Part shown: piece after piece, positions 5,648 through 11,902 of the stretch
Layout: each line of letters opens with the position of its first letter
Position numbering within the stretch: position 1 is the stretch's first letter
Assembly: GCF_000062885.1 (NCBI RefSeq)
Contig: NC_009142.1
Span: forward strand, 3,709,584-3,773,583
DNA length: 64,000 nt
Direction: 5' to 3'
Source: Saccharopolyspora erythraea NRRL 2338
GTDB lineage: Bacteria > Actinomycetota > Actinomycetes > Mycobacteriales > Pseudonocardiaceae
Notes under the pieces: model-generated
The model's input: the letters and a program-made list of their open reading frames with translations, nothing else
Told to the model about the DNA's origin: nothing
Database searches by the model: none
Translations under genes and position numbers: made by a program

Positions 5648-6052
5648 GTGCAGCTTGTCTCTGTCCGCGTCATCACCAACGACGTCGTCCGTCTTGTCGA
5701 GTTCTACGAGCAGGTGACCGGCCTCGATGCGCGGCGGCCCGCCGAGCAGTTCGCCGAGTTCGTAGGCCCGTCGTGCACGTTGGCCATCGGCAGTGCCGAG
5801 ACGATGGCGCTGTTCAGTGCCGGGGCGGCCGTACCCGAGTCGAACCGGACCGCGATCCTCGAGTTCCTCGTCGAGGACGTCGACCGAGAGTACGAACGGC
5901 TGACGAGCATGGCTGTCGCCCCCGAGATCGTGCAGAAGCCGACCACGATGCCGTGGGGAAACCGCTCTCTGCTGTTTCGCGACCCCGACGGCAACCTGGT
6001 CAACTTCTTCACCCCGCTTACCGACGGGGCCCGCGCAAGACTCGCCCGCTGA
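5648..6052 (+). CDS. VOC-superfamily (glyoxalase/bleomycin-resistance fold) protein
   Basis: The 134-aa protein has the paired beta-alpha-beta-beta-beta modules of the VOC fold: an opening SVRVITNDVVRLVEFYEQVTG, a central AILEFLVEDVDREYERL and the closing signature LLFRDPDGNLVNFFTP with the usual metal-ligand-region Asp and Asn. Family members include glyoxalases, dioxygenases and drug-binding proteins. Nothing visible identifies the ligand. The GTG start follows AAAGGA by 6 nt. The gene is divergent from a WYL regulator that probably controls it. Confidence 0.82.
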   Translation: MQLVSVRVITNDVVRLVEFYEQVTGLDARRPAEQFAEFVGPSCTLAIGSAETMALFSAGAAVPESNRTAILEFLVEDVDREYERLTSMAVAPEIVQKPTTMPWGNRSLLFRDPDGNLVNFFTPLTDGARARLAR

Positions 6053-6319: not shown

Positions 6320-7147
6320 ATGGGCGTGATCACGACCAAGGACGGCACCGAGATCTTCTACAAGGACTGGGGTTCGGGGCGTCCCGTCGTCTTCAGCCAC
6401 GGCTGGCCCCTCAGCGCCGACGCCTGGGACGACCAGATGGTGCTGGTGGCCTCGCGCGGCTTCCGGGCCATCGCCCACGACCGCAGGGGGCACGGGCGCT
6501 CGGAGCAGCCGTGGAGCGGCAACGACATGGACACCTACGCCGACGACCTGGCGGCGCTGCTCGACGTGCTCGCCCTGGAGAACGCGGTGCTGGTCGGCCA
6601 CTCGACCGGCGGCGGCGAGGTGACCCGCTACATCGGCCGCCACGGCACCGCCCGCGTGGCCGGGGCGGTGCTGCTGAGCGCGGTCCCGCCGCTGATGCTG
6701 CGCACCGAGCACAACCCCGGCGGCCTGCCGATCGATGTCTTCGACGAGATGCGCACGGGCGTCGCCGCCGACCGGTCGCAGTTCTACCGCGACCTCAGCG
6801 AACCGTTCTACGGCGCGAACCGGCCCGGCTCGGCGGTCTCGCAGGGCCTGCGCGAGGCGTTCTGGCTGATGAGCATGCAGGTCGGGCTCAACGCCGCGCT
6901 GGAGTGCATCAGGGCGTTCTCCGAGACCGACTTCACCGACGACCTGCGCAGGATCGACGTCCCGACGCTGATCTTGCACGGCGACGACGACCAGATCGTG
7001 CCCATCGACGCCTCCGCGCGGAAGTCGGCCGAACTGGTCCGCGGCGCGACCCTGAAGGTCTACCCCGGCGCCTCGCACGGGCTCGCCGCCACGCCGGAGT
7101 ACAAGGACGCGTTCAACTCCGACCTGCTGGAGTTCATCTCCTTCTAG
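6320..7147 (+). CDS. Alpha/beta hydrolase (cofactor-free haloperoxidase/arylesterase type)
   Basis: This 275-aa alpha/beta hydrolase has the oxyanion region [10 protein letters not shown], the nucleophile elbow GHSTGGGEV with Ser95, the acid Asp in [10 protein letters not shown] and His in GASHGLA near the C-terminus. The GGGE elbow and overall length match non-haem chloroperoxidase/arylesterase proteins, which hydrolyse esters and show perhydrolase activity. The ATG at 6320 gives the canonical start; a longer in-frame extension upstream has no family support. The stop codon TAG is created jointly by the genomic TA and the first G of an IS630 element inserted there, and the uninterrupted site would also have read TAG. 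The protein is therefore intact. Confidence 0.87.
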
Positions 7148-8238
7148 TGTCGTGAGTCGTTAATTCGTTGGCAGTAGGCTGCGAGGGTTTGGAAGATTTC
7201 GTCGGCGGTCTTGGTCCAGACGAAGGGTGTGGGGTCGGCGTTCCAGGATTCGATCCAGGCGCGGACGTCTGCTTCGAGTTCGGTGACGCTGCGGTGGGCG
7301 GATCGGCGGAGTTTGCGGTTGGTCAGCTCGGCGAACCACCGTTCGACGAGGTTGAGCCAGGAGGCGCTCGTGGGGGTGAAGTGCACGTGGAAGCGCGGGT
7401 GGCGCAACAACCATTTCTTGATCACGGGTGTCTTGTGCGTCGCGTAGTTATCACAGATCAGGTGCAAGTCCAGTTCGGCGGGAGTGTTCTTGTCGATGGT
7501 CTTCAGGAATTTCAGGAACTCCTGATGGCGGTGCCGCCGGTAGTGCTGGCTGATGATGGATCCGGTGGCCACGTCCAGGGCGGCGAACAGGCTGGTGGTG
7601 CCGTGCCGGACATAGTCGTGGGTCATGCGCGCCGGGGTGGTGGGCATGACCGGCAGGATCGGCGCGGTGCGATCCAGAGCCTGTATCTGGGATTTCTCAT
7701 CGACGCAGAGGACCAGGGCGTTTTCCGGTGGGTCCAGGTAGAGGCCGACGACGTCTCGGACCTTTTCCACGAACAGCGGATCGGTGCTGAGCTTCCAGGT
7801 CTGCACCAGGTGCGGCTTGAGCTCAAAAGCCCGCCAGATCCGGGAAATCGCCGTCTGCGACATCCCGACCGCGTTCGCCATCGAACGAGTCGACCAATGC
7901 GAGTCCTCGTTCGGCGGCGCCTCCTCCAGTGTCTTGGCGATCACGGTTTCGACCTGTTGGTCAGTGATCGTGCGCGGGGCACCCGGCCGGGGCTCGTCCG
8001 ACAATCCCTCCAGGCGATCAGCGACAAAGCGGCGGCGCCACTTCGTCACCGTCGGAGGGGAAATCTGCAACTGCCGCGAGACGTCCATGTTGGACACTCC
8101 CTCGGCGCAGGCGAGCACGATCCGTGCCCGCAACGCCAACGCCTGCGCGGTTTTCGGGCGACGCGCCCACCTCTGAAGCGTCTCCCGTTCAGCGTCCGTC
8201 AACGCCAAATCGGGCAAACGCGGACCTCTACGACCCAT
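7144..8238 (-). CDS. IS630-family DDE transposase
   Basis: About 364 aa. An N-terminal pair of helix-turn-helix regions (residues 30-150: [24 protein letters not shown], later [17 protein letters not shown]) binds the element ends. The catalytic core has the three acidic residues in [15 protein letters not shown] and [11 protein letters not shown], as in IS630 transposases, which cut and paste DNA at TA. The ATG at 8238 is used; in-frame GTG/TTG codons upstream, to 8256, could also serve. The stop codon TAG uses the target TA plus a flanking host base, so the reading frame ends exactly at the element boundary. It overlaps the hydrolase stop by 4 bp. Confidence 0.92.
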
Positions 8239-8276
8239 CACCAAAACATACAACAAACTTCCAACTCAGGACACTA
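7145..8276 (-). mobile_element. IS630-family insertion sequence with TA target duplication
   Basis: The element occupies 7147-8274 (1128 bp) between TA dinucleotides at 7145-7146 and 8275-8276, the target duplication typical of IS630/Tc1-mariner elements. Its ends form an imperfect inverted repeat: left GTGTCGTGAGTCGTTAATT, right (reverse complement) GTGTCCTGAGTTGGAAGTT. A single complete transposase gene fills it. Intact ends and an intact gene suggest fairly recent insertion. It landed between the alpha/beta hydrolase and the sigma-factor operon without breaking either coding sequence. Confidence 0.9.
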
Positions 8277-8438
8277 GGGCCGGTATCGCTGGGGTCGGCA
8301 TCGCGCTGGTGCTCGCCGCCGGCCGCTGTGGACGGCTCCTCAGCCACGGCGTCCTGAGGCTGCTCCGGAGCGGGCCACGGGCGAGTGACACGGCGGCGGC
8401 GGTGCAACCGATCCGCGCGGTCGGTGTTCTCCTGGAAC

Positions 8439-9050
8439 ATGGGTGACATGCCAGCCGAGCCGGACGACTCCGGCGAGGTCCTCGCCGCGCTCGCCGACGA
8501 CCTGGACGAGGGCTTCGCCGTGCTCGTGCGCGCCTACTCGCGGACGGTGTACTCGGTCGCGTACCGGCTGTGCGGCCGGGACACCGACGCCGAGGACCTC
8601 GCGGCCGAGTCGCTGCTGCGCGCGTACCGGTCGCTGCGCGGCTACGACCGCGACCGCATCCTGCGGTTGTCGCTGCGCTCGTGGCTGGTCACGATCGTGC
8701 TCAACGCGTGGCGCAACCTCCTGCGCGACGCGGGCAGACGGCCGGGGCAGGTGCCGATGGCCGAGCTCCCGGAGCGGTCGGTCGCAGGCCCCAGCGTCGA
8801 GGAGCAGGTGGAACGCCTGGAGACCCGCGACGAGCTGGGCGCGCTGGTGGCGCGGCTGCCGGAGAGCCAGCGGATCGCGGTCGTGCTGCGCCACGTCGTG
8901 GGCATGCCGATCGCGGAGGTGGCCGCGGCGATGGACTGCCCGGAGGGGACGGCGAAGTCGCACGTCTCACGGGGTCTGCGGCGCATCCGCGAGGACTACA
9001 CCGCCGCCGCGCGTCCCGCGGCGGCGGCCGGAGGGAGGAGTACCCGATGA
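8439..9050 (+). CDS. ECF-type RNA polymerase sigma factor
   Basis: The 203-aa protein has sigma region 2 (FAVLVRAYSRTVYSVAYRLCGRD and the DAEDLAAE core-binding/-10 segment, residues 28-75) and region 4 (LPESQRIAVVLRHVVGMPIAEVAAAMDCPEGTAKSHVSRGLRRI, residues 130-175), without region 3, as in ECF sigma factors. It heads a tightly overlapping operon: its TGA lies within ATGA, the start of the Ada-like gene. No anti-sigma gene is present, so control may be by promoter autoregulation or through a repair protein in the operon. Starts at 8439 and 8448 are both possible. The inferred role is directing transcription of the alkylation-repair genes downstream. Confidence 0.88.
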   Translation: MGDMPAEPDDSGEVLAALADDLDEGFAVLVRAYSRTVYSVAYRLCGRDTDAEDLAAESLLRAYRSLRGYDRDRILRLSLRSWLVTIVLNAWRNLLRDAGRRPGQVPMAELPERSVAGPSVEEQVERLETRDELGALVARLPESQRIAVVLRHVVGMPIAEVAAAMDCPEGTAKSHVSRGLRRIREDYTAAARPAAAAGGRSTR

Positions 9051-9811
9051 GGGTCAACAGGCACAGTTCACTGGAGGCGGCGCTGGCCGATCTCCTCGAC
9101 GAGCCGCCCAGGCCGCTCGCGGACCGGATCTTCGCCGAGTGGACGCGGGCGCGCAGCCGGTTCGGGCCGGTCGACGTGGCGTTCAACCGCCACGGCGTCA
9201 TGTTCGTCCGCACCGCGGAGTCCGAGCAGGACGACGCTGAGTTCCGGGAGGCGTTCCGGCAGGTGTTCGAACAGCCGTTGCGGCGCGCCGAGCGCGAGCC
9301 CACCGGGATGCTCACGGCTCTGCGCCGCAACCGGACCAGGTCGATCCAGGTCGACCTGCGGCACCTGCCGGACTTCGACCAGGAGGTGCTGCGGGCGACC
9401 CGGCTCATCCCGGCGGGCCAGACCCGTCCGAGCGCCTGGGTGGCCCGGGAGGTCGGCCGCCCAGAGCGGGCACCCGCGGTGGACGTGGTGCTGGCGCGCA
9501 ACCCGGTCCCGGTCGTCGTCCCGTGCCACCGCGTGACCCGCGGCGAGAGCGGCGAGCACGTGTTCGGCGCGCGGGCACAGGAACGCATGCTGCGGTCGGA
9601 GGAGGTCAACCTCGACGAGGTCCGGGAGCTCGCCGAGTCCGGCGTCCACTACCTCGGCAGCGACACCACCAACATCGTGTGCTTCCCGACCTGCCACAAC
9701 GCCAGGCGGATCAGCGCCGCCCACCGGCGCGGCTTCGGTACCGTCGAGGCGGCCGAAAAGGCCGGGTACCGGCCGTGCAGGCACTGCCGTCCGGTCGAGA
9801 TGGCATCGTGA
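9047..9811 (+). CDS. Ada-like fusion: O6-alkylguanine-DNA alkyltransferase + Ada zinc domain
   Basis: A 254-aa protein with two DNA-repair domains in the order opposite to classical Ada. Residues about 95-190 match the OGT/MGMT fold, with the active-site PCHRV (methyl-accepting Cys) preceded by IPAGQTRPSAWVAREVGRP. Residues about 200-252 match the Ada N-terminal methylphosphotriester domain: C-x3-C (CFPTC) and C-x2-C (CRHCRP) supply all four zinc/acceptor cysteines. The AraC-type HTH of Ada is absent. OGT transfers alkyl groups from O6-guanine to itself; the Ada zinc domain repairs phosphotriesters and, once methylated, normally promotes DNA binding. The gene overlaps its neighbours by 4 bp on both sides (ATGA, GTGA). 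Confidence 0.88.
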   Translation: MRVNRHSSLEAALADLLDEPPRPLADRIFAEWTRARSRFGPVDVAFNRHGVMFVRTAESEQDDAEFREAFRQVFEQPLRRAEREPTGMLTALRRNRTRSIQVDLRHLPDFDQEVLRATRLIPAGQTRPSAWVAREVGRPERAPAVDVVLARNPVPVVVPCHRVTRGESGEHVFGARAQERMLRSEEVNLDEVRELAESGVHYLGSDTTNIVCFPTCHNARRISAAHRRGFGTVEAAEKAGYRPCRHCRPVEMAS

Positions 9812-10284
9812 CCGGCGCGGAGGTCGGCAAGGTGGTCGAGCTGCTGCGCGAGCTGGAGGCGACCCTGGTCAACATCGGGCACGGGCGGGACGCGGGCTCG
9901 GCCGAGCGGGCGGCCCGGTTCGTCCGCGCGTGGAGCGCGGCGGGCGGCGAGATCGGCGCGGTCGTGTCGTGGCCCGCCCGCGCCGCTTCCTGGCTGAAGC
10001 CGGCGTGCCGGCTGGTCGCCGGAGGGCCGGATGCCTGGGTGGTGGCCGACGAGCCGACCGGCTGGACCGGATTCGGCCGCAGACTGGCGGCCGTCGGTGG
10101 CTGGCGGCCGGACCGCACGGTCGCCTTCGCCGGGCTCGCCGATCCGCTCCTGCCGGCAGCGGTCGGAGCCGCGGCCACCGACGGTATGAGAGGGGCCGCA
10201 TCGGACGGTTCGGGCTGGATGTTCGCCGACGGCCGACTCATCTCCCGAGGTACCGGGGGAGGGACGGTGACGCCATGGAGATGA
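9808..10284 (+). CDS. Uncharacterised 158-aa protein in alkylation-repair operon
   Basis: The GTG start overlaps the Ada-like stop (GTGA), and the gene's own TGA overlaps the start of alkB, so it is translationally coupled inside the operon. The protein is compact, alpha/beta-looking, with no signal peptide or membrane segment. Features are an N-terminal helix (VGKVVELLRELEATLVNIG), a Trp-rich centre (VVSWPARAASWLKPACRL, WVVADEPTGWTGFGRRLA) and AFAGLADPLLPA near residue 115. I do not recognise a catalytic motif. It resembles short actinobacterial proteins sometimes labelled as ABC transporter substrate-binding fragments, which says nothing about function. Operon position suggests a repair or signalling accessory role. 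Confidence 0.75.
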   Translation: MTGAEVGKVVELLRELEATLVNIGHGRDAGSAERAARFVRAWSAAGGEIGAVVSWPARAASWLKPACRLVAGGPDAWVVADEPTGWTGFGRRLAAVGGWRPDRTVAFAGLADPLLPAAVGAAATDGMRGAASDGSGWMFADGRLISRGTGGGTVTPWR

Positions 10285-10928
10285 TTCCCCGGCCGCGCAC
10301 CGAACTGGCACCGGGCGCGGTCCACGTACCGGACTGGCTGGATCCAGGACAGCAGCGGATGCTCGTCCGGGCCTGCCGGGAATGGGCGACCGGCCCCGCA
10401 GGCATGCGGGCCGCCCGCATGCCCAACGGGGCCGTCATGTCCGCGCGGACCGTCTGCCTGGGCTGGCACTGGTATCCGTACCGGTACTCGCGGACGCTCG
10501 ACGACCAGGACGGCTCGCCGGTCAAGCCGTTCCCGTCCTGGCTCGGAGATCTCGGCAGGCGAGCGGTCGCCGACGCCTACGGTGACGACTTCGACGCGGC
10601 GGACTACCGACCCGACGTCGCGCTGATCAACTACTACGACGACTCGGCGCGGATGGGGCTGCACCAGGACAAGGACGAGCGCGCGCCGGATCCGGTGGTC
10701 TCGCTCAGCCTGGGCGACACAGGCATGTTCCGCCTCGGCAACACCGAGAACCGCAACCGGCCGTGGACCGACGTCGAGCTCTGCTCGGGAGACCTGCTGG
10801 TGTTCGGCGGCCCCTCGCGGATGGCCTACCACGGCGTGCTGCGAATCCTGCCCGGTACCCGCGAGCCGGACATCGGGCTCGACCGCGGCAGGCTGAACAT
10901 CACGATGCGGGTGTCCGGTTTGGACTGA
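10275..10928 (+). CDS. alkB: AlkB-family Fe(II)/2-oxoglutarate-dependent DNA dealkylase
   Basis: This 217-aa dioxygenase has the iron triad in HQDKDE (His and Asp) and YHGVLR (His), and the 2-oxoglutarate-binding RLNITMR (R-x-N-x-T-x-R) at the C-terminus, the full AlkB signature. AlkB oxidatively removes methyl groups from 1-methyladenine and 3-methylcytosine in DNA. The protein also keeps the NYY segment (ALINYYDDSARMGLHQD) that precedes the iron motif. Two starts are possible: ATG at 10275, or ATG at 10281, which overlaps the preceding TGA as ATGA like the other junctions in this operon. It is the last gene of the sigma-Ada-unknown-AlkB set. Confidence 0.93.
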   Translation: MEMIPRPRTELAPGAVHVPDWLDPGQQRMLVRACREWATGPAGMRAARMPNGAVMSARTVCLGWHWYPYRYSRTLDDQDGSPVKPFPSWLGDLGRRAVADAYGDDFDAADYRPDVALINYYDDSARMGLHQDKDERAPDPVVSLSLGDTGMFRLGNTENRNRPWTDVELCSGDLLVFGGPSRMAYHGVLRILPGTREPDIGLDRGRLNITMRVSGLD

Positions 10929-11053
10929 CGGTCTTGTCGGCGGTCCCGCGCGAAGATCCGCATCGCTCTGGCCAAACTCGCCGCGTCAACTTCCCCAGAA
11001 CTGCAACCGGTTCCGCTCATCGGTGTTCTTCATGGTGTGGGCGCGATGCTCAC

Positions 11054-11095: not shown

Positions 11096-11902
11096 ATGGA
11101 TCTGAACCTCTCCGGCCGGGTCGCGGTGGTGACCGGCGCTTCCAAGGGCATCGGACTCGCGGTGACCCGCACGCTGCTGGCCGAGGGCGCCCGCGTGGTG
11201 GCCACCTCCCGGAAACCTTCCCAGGAGCTCGACGAACTCGCCGGTCCCGACCTGGTGCACTTCCCCGCCGACCTGATGGACCCGGAGGCACCGGCCGCGC
11301 TCATCGCGCACGCGGTGGAGGTCTTCGGAGGACTCGACATCCTGGTCAACAACGCGGGCGGCCCGCCTCCGGGCGTCACCCTGCCCAGGGGCTCGTTCAT
11401 GGACGCGACCGACGAGCAGTGGCGGATGATGTTCGAGCTCAACCTCTTCTCGGTGGTCCGCGCGATCAGGGCGGCGATTCCGGCGATGCTGGCGCGGGGC
11501 GGTGGCTCGATCGTCAACGTCTCCTCCGGCAACGCGCGCCAGCCGTCCCCGATCAACGTCGACTACGGCGCCGCCAAGGCGGGTGTGAACAACCTGACCA
11601 AGGTGCTGGCGGGCGAGTACGGCCCGCAGGGCCTCCGCGTGAACACGGTCTCGCCGGGGCCGGTGCGCACTCCCTTGTGGACCGAAGAGGGCGGTGTCGC
11701 CGACCTGATCGCCGCGCAGGCGGGAATCGACCGCGAGAGCGTCCTGTCCTCGGTCGTGCCGGAGATGATGAAGCTGGCCACCGGGCGGCTCGCCGATCCG
11801 CAGGAGGTAGCCGACGCGGTGGTGCTGCTCGCCTCGCCCCGCTCGGGCAGCACCACAGGTGCCGACTTAGCCGTCGATTCGGGCTTCCTCAAAGAGGTGT
11901 GA
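11096..11902 (+). CDS. Short-chain dehydrogenase/reductase
   Basis: The 268-aa classical SDR has TGASKGIG at residues 13-20, NNAGG near 88, the active-site Ser in IVNVSSGNA and Y-x3-K in VDYGAAKAGVNN. The segment RVNTVSPGPVRTPLW is the usual SDR C-terminal substrate-side motif. It resembles 3-oxoacyl-ACP reductase-like dehydrogenases. The substrate is unknown. A clear AGGAG lies 7 nt before the ATG, and a perfect hairpin precedes it in the leader. It is a separate transcription unit from the repair operon, and its transcript probably ends at the hairpin at 12058-12087. Confidence 0.88.
   Translation: MDLNLSGRVAVVTGASKGIGLAVTRTLLAEGARVVATSRKPSQELDELAGPDLVHFPADLMDPEAPAALIAHAVEVFGGLDILVNNAGGPPPGVTLPRGSFMDATDEQWRMMFELNLFSVVRAIRAAIPAMLARGGGSIVNVSSGNARQPSPINVDYGAAKAGVNNLTKVLAGEYGPQGLRVNTVSPGPVRTPLWTEEGGVADLIAAQAGIDRESVLSSVVPEMMKLATGRLADPQEVADAVVLLASPRSGSTTGADLAVDSGFLKEV

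Follow-up and report, generated by a model that had tools for sequence, protein, structure and literature searches.

The stretch of DNA analysed here, 64,000 nucleotides (nt) of Saccharopolyspora erythraea NRRL 2338 (contig NC_009142.1, positions 3,709,584 to 3,773,583 of the forward strand; hereafter the window), contains a four-gene operon headed by the gene of an extracytoplasmic function (ECF) sigma factor. The second gene encodes a protein, here called OGT-Zn, in which an OGT repair domain is followed by an Ada-type zinc domain, and ORF3 and an alkB gene complete the operon. Together with the promoter predicted in front of it, the operon comprises the following features, where the matrix score is that of a position weight matrix (PWM) described below and protein positions are given in amino acids (aa):

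8404..8428, + strand, predicted sigma-type promoter: -35 element GCAAC at 8404-8408, 14-nt spacer, -10 element GGTGTT at 8423-8428; PWM score 35.6, as a member of the training set
8439..9050, + strand, ECF sigma factor gene: regions 2 and 4 (Pfam Sigma70_r2, E 2.3e-15; r4_2, E 6.9e-15)
9047..9811, + strand, OGT-Zn gene: Pfam DNA_binding_1 at aa 109-187 and Ada_Zn_binding at aa 198-249
9808..10284, + strand, ORF3 gene: single-lobe LivJ/LivK-like type 1 periplasmic-binding fold
10281..10928 (alternative start 10275), + strand, AlkB-type 2OG-Fe(II) dioxygenase gene: Pfam 2OG-FeII_Oxy_2, E 6.1e-46

Each gene of the operon shares 4 nt with the next; an alkB start at 10275 would lengthen the overlap to 10 nt at the ORF3/alkB junction. 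For the sigma factor gene, which has a second ATG at 8448, the spacing to the promoter supports the ATG at 8439 as the start. Pfam searches up to E 1 found neither a region 3 family nor an extra domain in the sigma factor, and PADLOC returned no defence-system match for the sigma factor, OGT-Zn, ORF3 or alkB. An earlier note, made from the DNA letters alone, had described an ECF sigma factor at the head of an overlapping operon that ends in alkB, together with an Ada-like protein that has its OGT domain first, its zinc domain last and no AraC helix-turn-helix (HTH). The Pfam assignments and coordinates confirm this operon as real; the title of that note passed over ORF3.

The pairing of sigma factor and OGT was followed through 52 loci (cited by L numbers), namely the window, 9 others of its order and 42 from a scan of named genomes. 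All loci were chosen by OGT similarity, and this sample cannot reveal sigma genes without OGT; two of them (L071 and L075) look broken, L005-L013 are short (the longer L173 covers L005), and reading frames were anchored by homology, gene calling by third-position GC having chosen wrong frames in parts of the GC-rich operon. Within the window's own order, in the grouping that the search used, 10 of 298 genomes gave an OGT-Zn match at E < 1e-30, and the 42 scanned loci belong to Nonomuraea, Pseudonocardia, Amycolatopsis, Streptosporangium, Sphaerisporangium, Bailinhaonella, Actinoallomurus, Solihabitans, Gandjariella and others, which places the pair in at least two actinobacterial orders (Nonomuraea in Streptosporangiales, Pseudonocardia in Pseudonocardiales). 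The same sigma gene lies immediately 5' of the OGT gene in all 52 loci, with a 4-nt overlap in 42 of them under a start-choice rule that favours overlap, and none of the 52 contains a sigma-OGT fusion. Other flanks of the pair vary between lineages, and the within-protein distances of sigma factor and OGT correlate at 0.88 over 50 loci (uncorrected for shared species history). ORF3 and alkB are optional companions: both stand beside the pair in the window, L007, L034, L038 and L039, and ORF3 without alkB does so in L010, L041 and L042. In L173, alkB and a gene of the Oxygenase-NA family (PF09859) are located further downstream of the pair, and Nonomuraea-type genomes carry a separate operon with OGT2, Oxygenase-NA, ORF3 and alkB, the completeness of which varies.

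Promoter conservation accompanies the pairing. Upstream of the sigma gene, 50 of the 52 loci carry the element GC[AC]AC, a spacer of 14-15 nt (16 in one) and a -10 box, which reads GG[TG]GTT in 49 loci and is one base off in one; the motif is summarised as GCAAC-N14/15-GG[TG]GTT. The two loci lacking it are the broken L071 and L036, where an Oxygenase-NA gene with the motif upstream of it overlaps the sigma gene. An ATG or GTG follows the motif by about 6-14 nt across the loci (10 nt at the 8404 site), and, with a start codon so close to the -10 box, the sigma transcript is probably leaderless. A weight matrix built from the 50 sigma promoters was run over 1.68 Mb of neighbourhoods on both strands at a cut of 16 and returned 66 rows, against 1 in the reversed-sequence control. 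These rows are made up of the 50 training promoters, 3 duplicates (L039 appearing twice and L182 repeating the two sites of the window) and 13 distinct sites, of which 5 precede Oxygenase-NA (L034, L036, L037, L038, L173), 3 precede OGT2 (L037, L039, L184) and 1 precedes a short-chain dehydrogenase (SDR) gene in the window. The remaining 4 (L044, L059, L072, L174) precede no clear repair gene and were not counted as regulon; the L072 site near 8171 (- strand) precedes what we take to be an MFS transporter gene, and the L174 site near 6016 (- strand) lies near a presumably SARP-like regulator gene. The surroundings of the operon in the window comprise the following features:

7144-8256, transposase gene 5' of the operon, which we take to be of IS630-like type from its DDE_3 and HTH domains
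11003..11027, + strand, second sigma-type promoter copy, directly 3' of alkB: PWM score 30.3, outside the training set
11096..11902, + strand, SDR gene, 3' of the second promoter: Pfam adh_short_C2, E 1.2e-54

Across the 8.2 Mb window genome (a single contig), 8404 and 11003 are the only two sites that fit the strict leaderless pattern, which is absent from the control. The looser pattern GCAACN{14,15}GGKGTT gives 32 matches against 7 in the control, 9 of the 32 being copies of one near-identical repeat, and among the 30 genome matches that were scored the two window sites alone score above 26, with 25.2 as the next best value. The SDR encoded at 11096 is, by its predicted promoter, a possible member of the regulon. 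An SDR gene is also located 3' of the OGT-Zn gene in L173.

The regulon content in relatives was assessed by scoring 300 nt upstream of each Oxygenase-NA gene, or of an OGT2 gene where one directly precedes it, at a cut of 13 that was chosen after the scores were seen and at which 0.001 hits are expected by chance per 320 nt. A motif above 13 was present at Oxygenase-NA in 9 of the 30 genomes carrying the pair, which divide into 8 of the 24 genomes first reached (5 more of 29 had no Oxygenase-NA gene) and, within a family sample, 1 of 6 others that gave an OGT-Zn match; in 12 genomes of the same family sample without an OGT-Zn match, the motif stood at 0 of 14 Oxygenase-NA genes, with a top score of 7.9. 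In pair-carrying genomes, the conserved promoter stands before the sigma gene and also before certain further alkylation-repair genes, and on this ground the sigma factor is most likely the source of transcription, the role that the earlier note had proposed for it. The co-occurrence of these promoters is explained most simply if the sigma factor reads them; the sigma factor probably drives its own operon together with alkylation-repair genes. The promoters shared among relatives suggest that the sigma-OGT pair could act as a stand-alone switch for methylated-DNA repair.

The OGT-Zn protein is composed of an N-terminal helical extension (aa 1-28), an OGT fold (aa 28-188) with the acceptor motif PCHRV (C160), and an Ada-type zinc domain (aa 198-249) in which all of the zinc-ligand cysteines C212, C216, C244 and C247 are present. 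The zinc domain reaches 41.7 bits against PF02805 (cut-off 23) over profile positions 14-64 of 65; the OGT domain is N-terminal to it, and no AraC-type HTH was found in the protein by Pfam up to E 1. Two other Ada_Zn genes are present in the genome, both encoding longer proteins with the zinc domain first. A profile of 29 sequences matches the E. coli Ada OGT structure 1sfe and the N-Ada structures 1adn, 1zgw and 1u8b, covering chain residues 25-77 in 1adn and 1zgw. The AlphaFold model of OGT-Zn has a mean predicted local distance difference test score (pLDDT) of 81.5, with 60-62 in the first 20 residues, and superimposes on 1sfe with Z 18.5 over 156 residues; its residues 190-251 match 1u8b with Z 6.5 over 58 residues, a value that would be weak if alone and that the sequence profile agrees with on the zinc domain. 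Residue 1 of Mycobacterium tuberculosis Ogt aligns to residue 29 of the model, the extension of about 28 residues being absent from that Ogt.

Conservation across the 52 aligned rows is complete for Cys160, His161, Asn152 and Glu185 of the OGT domain, and C212 is found in 50 rows, absent just in L012 and L013, with the other three zinc cysteines present in 48 or 49. The window OGT itself departs at two conserved positions, having S129 where 50 of 52 rows have tyrosine and P143 where 49 of 52 have arginine, and both changes are shared with the congener G324. In human MGMT, the corresponding residues are the base-flipping tyrosine and the arginine finger. With both lost, O6-methylguanine repair by the window OGT may be weak. 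The proteins of L012 and L013 stop right after the OGT domain, and a three-frame translation of the next 700-odd bases showed no zinc motif by eye. In a midpoint-rooted tree, L013 groups with the zinc-bearing L008/L009 as their sister (support 1.0), and L012 is nested among zinc-bearing relatives as sister to L006 (support 0.975), for which reason its lack of the domain looks like a loss.

These two loci bear directly on a model along the lines of the earlier note, an Ada split in two: alkylation would be sensed by the zinc domain, and OGT-Zn, once methylated, would act as coactivator of the sigma factor. Such a model draws on the presence of C212, the equivalent of Ada C38, in all 50 rows having the domain, on a reported interaction between E. 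coli Ada and a sigma subunit (known here from a title cited in PMC4437013), and on a window-genus OGT that has lost Y129 and R143 with its zinc domain intact. Yet L012 and L013, the former by nested loss, retain the same sigma factor, OGT and promoter without the zinc domain, which makes the domain dispensable for the conserved module, and no HTH is left in OGT-Zn for promoter targeting. A zinc domain that is the sensor is thus not supported as stated in that note; the domain is unlikely to be an essential sensor, and we regard coactivation by methylated OGT-Zn as improbable.

The integrity of the window copy was assessed against the one other genome of the genus that was compared (G324), which holds the same operon with an OGT-Zn 92% identical to that of the window. 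Ratios of nonsynonymous to synonymous substitution rates (dN/dS, by NG86, window against G324) are 0.31 for sigma, 0.32 for OGT-Zn, 0.32 for ORF3, 0.16 for alkB and 0.13 for SDR, and purifying selection is evident. An insertion sequence just upstream of the operon and the OGT changes Y129S and R143P at conserved positions would be expected of a degenerate or non-functional copy, but this explanation is very improbable given that G324 has the same operon minus the insertion, that both promoters (8404 and 11003) are intact in both species, and that all four operon genes have the dN/dS values just given. The extra stretch with the IS630-like element, about 7139-8316 and absent in G324, ends 5' of the sigma promoter and leaves it untouched. 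The operon is not a chance arrangement, since the sigma and OGT genes are adjacent in 52 of 52 loci and the whole operon recurs in the congener at dN/dS 0.16-0.32.

The interpretation that we tentatively prefer, at a little short of an even chance, is a self-contained alkylation-response module in which OGT(-Zn) replaces an anti-sigma factor as a brake released by alkylation. Besides its own operon, the ECF sigma factor would transcribe further alkylation-repair genes in many relatives, and it would be co-translated, usually through the 4-nt overlap, with the OGT protein as its only constant partner. Unalkylated OGT(-Zn) would restrain the sigma factor, and the N-terminal helical extension, absent from free-standing OGTs, might mediate this. 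Irreversible alkylation of C160 (and of C212 in proteins with a zinc domain), whether from DNA lesions or straight from the agent, would free the sigma factor. Positive autoregulation would then replenish the repair protein, and the zinc domain would broaden the range of sensed damage, not serve as the essential sensor. A passage of PMC4437013 describes agents methylating Ada directly at C38 and C321. We infer the sigma-OGT contact, its sign, the cysteine that matters and induction by alkylation from the conserved arrangement: an OGT brake is favoured because a positively autoregulated sigma factor needs a brake, and OGT is the sole constant partner, coupled to the sigma gene in the way that anti-sigma genes usually are to theirs. 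The specific form in which OGT(-Zn) is itself the anti-sigma factor and its one-time alkylation the signal, with the window-genus OGT having perhaps dropped repair and been kept chiefly as a sensor, is a possibility that we hold to be less likely than not.

Several observations weigh against the brake model and have to be set beside it. The argument for a brake is drawn from gene order and from the absence of another constant partner alone, and the window OGT has lost the two conserved residues described above. No scoring motif precedes Oxygenase-NA in 21 of the 30 pair-carrying genomes (L241, whose gene starts at a contig end, was unscorable); the window genome's own Oxygenase-NA gene is among those without a motif and is located behind a different ECF sigma/OGT pair; and where alkB is located away from the pair in pair-carrying genomes, the motif is absent in 5 of 6, L194 having a one-mismatch version. 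Among 11 Nonomuraea-type genomes (L198-L205, L209, L213 and L220, one of them named [Actinomadura] parvosata), a GGTGTT box is found no more than 75 nt from the first gene of the Oxygenase-NA operon in all but L200 (10 of 11), and the -35 element scores just in L199. In the same genomes, the sequence GTCCGAAAAYCG is found upstream of OGT2 or Oxygenase-NA genes in 11 of 11, mostly just 5' of the GGTGTT box, and a similar sequence precedes Oxygenase-NA in L035 and L039. A further point comes from L041, where a different ECF sigma factor and a zf-HC2 anti-sigma-like protein are encoded about 3 kb upstream of the pair (L041:1731-3145). This zf-HC2 protein belongs next to that other sigma factor, and cross-control is possible there; a second sigma match, at 26-31% identity, occupies a similar place in most other Nonomuraea loci. 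No anti-sigma domain was detected by Pfam in the operon, nor was one found in the 10 flanking proteins examined at 9 other loci, and, with this caution about L041, the statement of the earlier note that no anti-sigma gene is present holds.

In another account, the sigma factor directs an alkylation-repair regulon and OGT-Zn is an effector only, the sigma factor being held down by something else, whether its own low transcription, proteolysis or an unlinked regulator. A sigma gene at the head of its own repair operon has the look of simple autoregulation, the presence of GTCCGAAAAYCG before all 11 Nonomuraea-type repair operons hints at another regulator, an anti-sigma-like protein occurs near the pair in L041, and the passage of PMC8999054 on ECF sigma factors without anti-sigma factors names transcriptional control, conformational change, proteolysis and phosphorylation as their means of control. 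Oxygenase-NA, ORF3, alkB and other OGTs are, however, variable companions, yet this OGT accompanies the sigma factor in 52 of 52 loci (in a set found through OGT), as a protein that is just an effector would not have to, and a second ECF sigma factor, about 30% identical, is likewise paired with an OGT. We consider this account possible, and rather doubtful than probable.

The second ECF-OGT pair also belongs to the window genome, at a distance of about 0.8 Mb (L272:2072-3231), where an OGT without a zinc domain is followed by Oxygenase-NA, and where the ECF sigma factor is the one about 30% identical to the first. In several loci, the upstream element of this second pair, as judged by eye, is CTCACrT followed by CGTCTAC close to the start. 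Its OGT is extended as well: the Methyltransf_1N match begins at residue 45, compared with residue 4 for OGT2, which is free-standing.

The two downstream genes of the operon were characterised by structure and sequence. The ORF3 model, built from 6 sequences, has a mean pLDDT of 82.8, and the 158-aa protein matches 7ylt_A, a chain of 361 residues, with Z 19.6 over 143 residues at a root-mean-square deviation of 2.3. Its Pfam Peripla_BP_6 score of 20 bits is below the 31.7 cut-off, sequence searches up to E 5 found no solved relative, and the protein amounts to one lobe's worth of a type 1 periplasmic binding protein, not two lobes. No export signal is visible by eye in the translation, and ORF3 is apparently cytosolic; its gene adjoins alkB in several genomes. 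The AlkB translation shows the motifs HxD...H and RxNxTxR, and scores below the NCBIfam equivalog cut-offs (PRK15401, 111 bits against 267; TIGR00568, 96 bits against 231).

The inducible alkylation response is known mainly through Ada, an AraC-type activator, and a dedicated ECF sigma factor with a conserved promoter and repair genes appears to do the job of Ada in at least two actinobacterial orders. The repair genes concerned are Oxygenase-NA or OGT in several relatives, and ORF3 and alkB within the operon of the pair in some. If the brake model is true, a suicide repair enzyme would govern a sigma factor, and the cell would count lesions by consuming its brake. In the open-access literature searched, no description of this operon, the zinc fusion, the promoter, the regulon or the second ECF-OGT pair was found among the matches listed, and nothing treated an ECF sigma factor jointly with AlkB, methylated DNA and anti-sigma.

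The module can be compared with several known systems. Canonical ECF sigma/anti-sigma pairs typically have the sigma gene first, a coupled partner second and an autoregulated promoter. The pair described here resembles them in gene order and in coupling, and may do so in autoregulation from its predicted promoter. It differs in having a repair enzyme as the sigma factor's partner, and no anti-sigma domain was detected in that enzyme. Split versions of Ada are represented by the AdaA/AdaB system and use an AraC-type regulator. A mycobacterial version, Ada-AlkA plus Ogt, is described in a passage of PMC7432924. The likeness to these systems lies in the spread of Ada functions over several proteins, and the difference in that the transcription function would here be supplied by an ECF sigma factor instead of an AraC-type regulator. 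With classical E. coli Ada, the window protein shares the combination of OGT and a four-cysteine zinc domain in one protein, and the operon shares the presence of alkB (for E. coli ada-alkB, see the passage in PMC4437013), whereas the reversed domain order, the lack of an AraC HTH and the separate dedicated sigma factor set it apart. Also close is the group ECF122, which PMC8999054, in its passage on the group, presents as ECF sigma factors without an anti-sigma factor beside 6-O-methylguanine DNA methyltransferases, with regulation uncharacterised. The link between sigma factor and OGT is, on the evidence of that passage, already known as gene context, and the window pair, compared here by the group description, likewise combines an ECF sigma factor without an anti-sigma gene with an adjacent OGT, although neither a zinc fusion nor a promoter or regulon is mentioned there; the second ECF-OGT pair of the genome could equally be ECF122. 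With defined promoters, cysteines and a partner that can be deleted, the control of ECF sigma factors that have no anti-sigma factor, those of ECF122 included, becomes directly testable.

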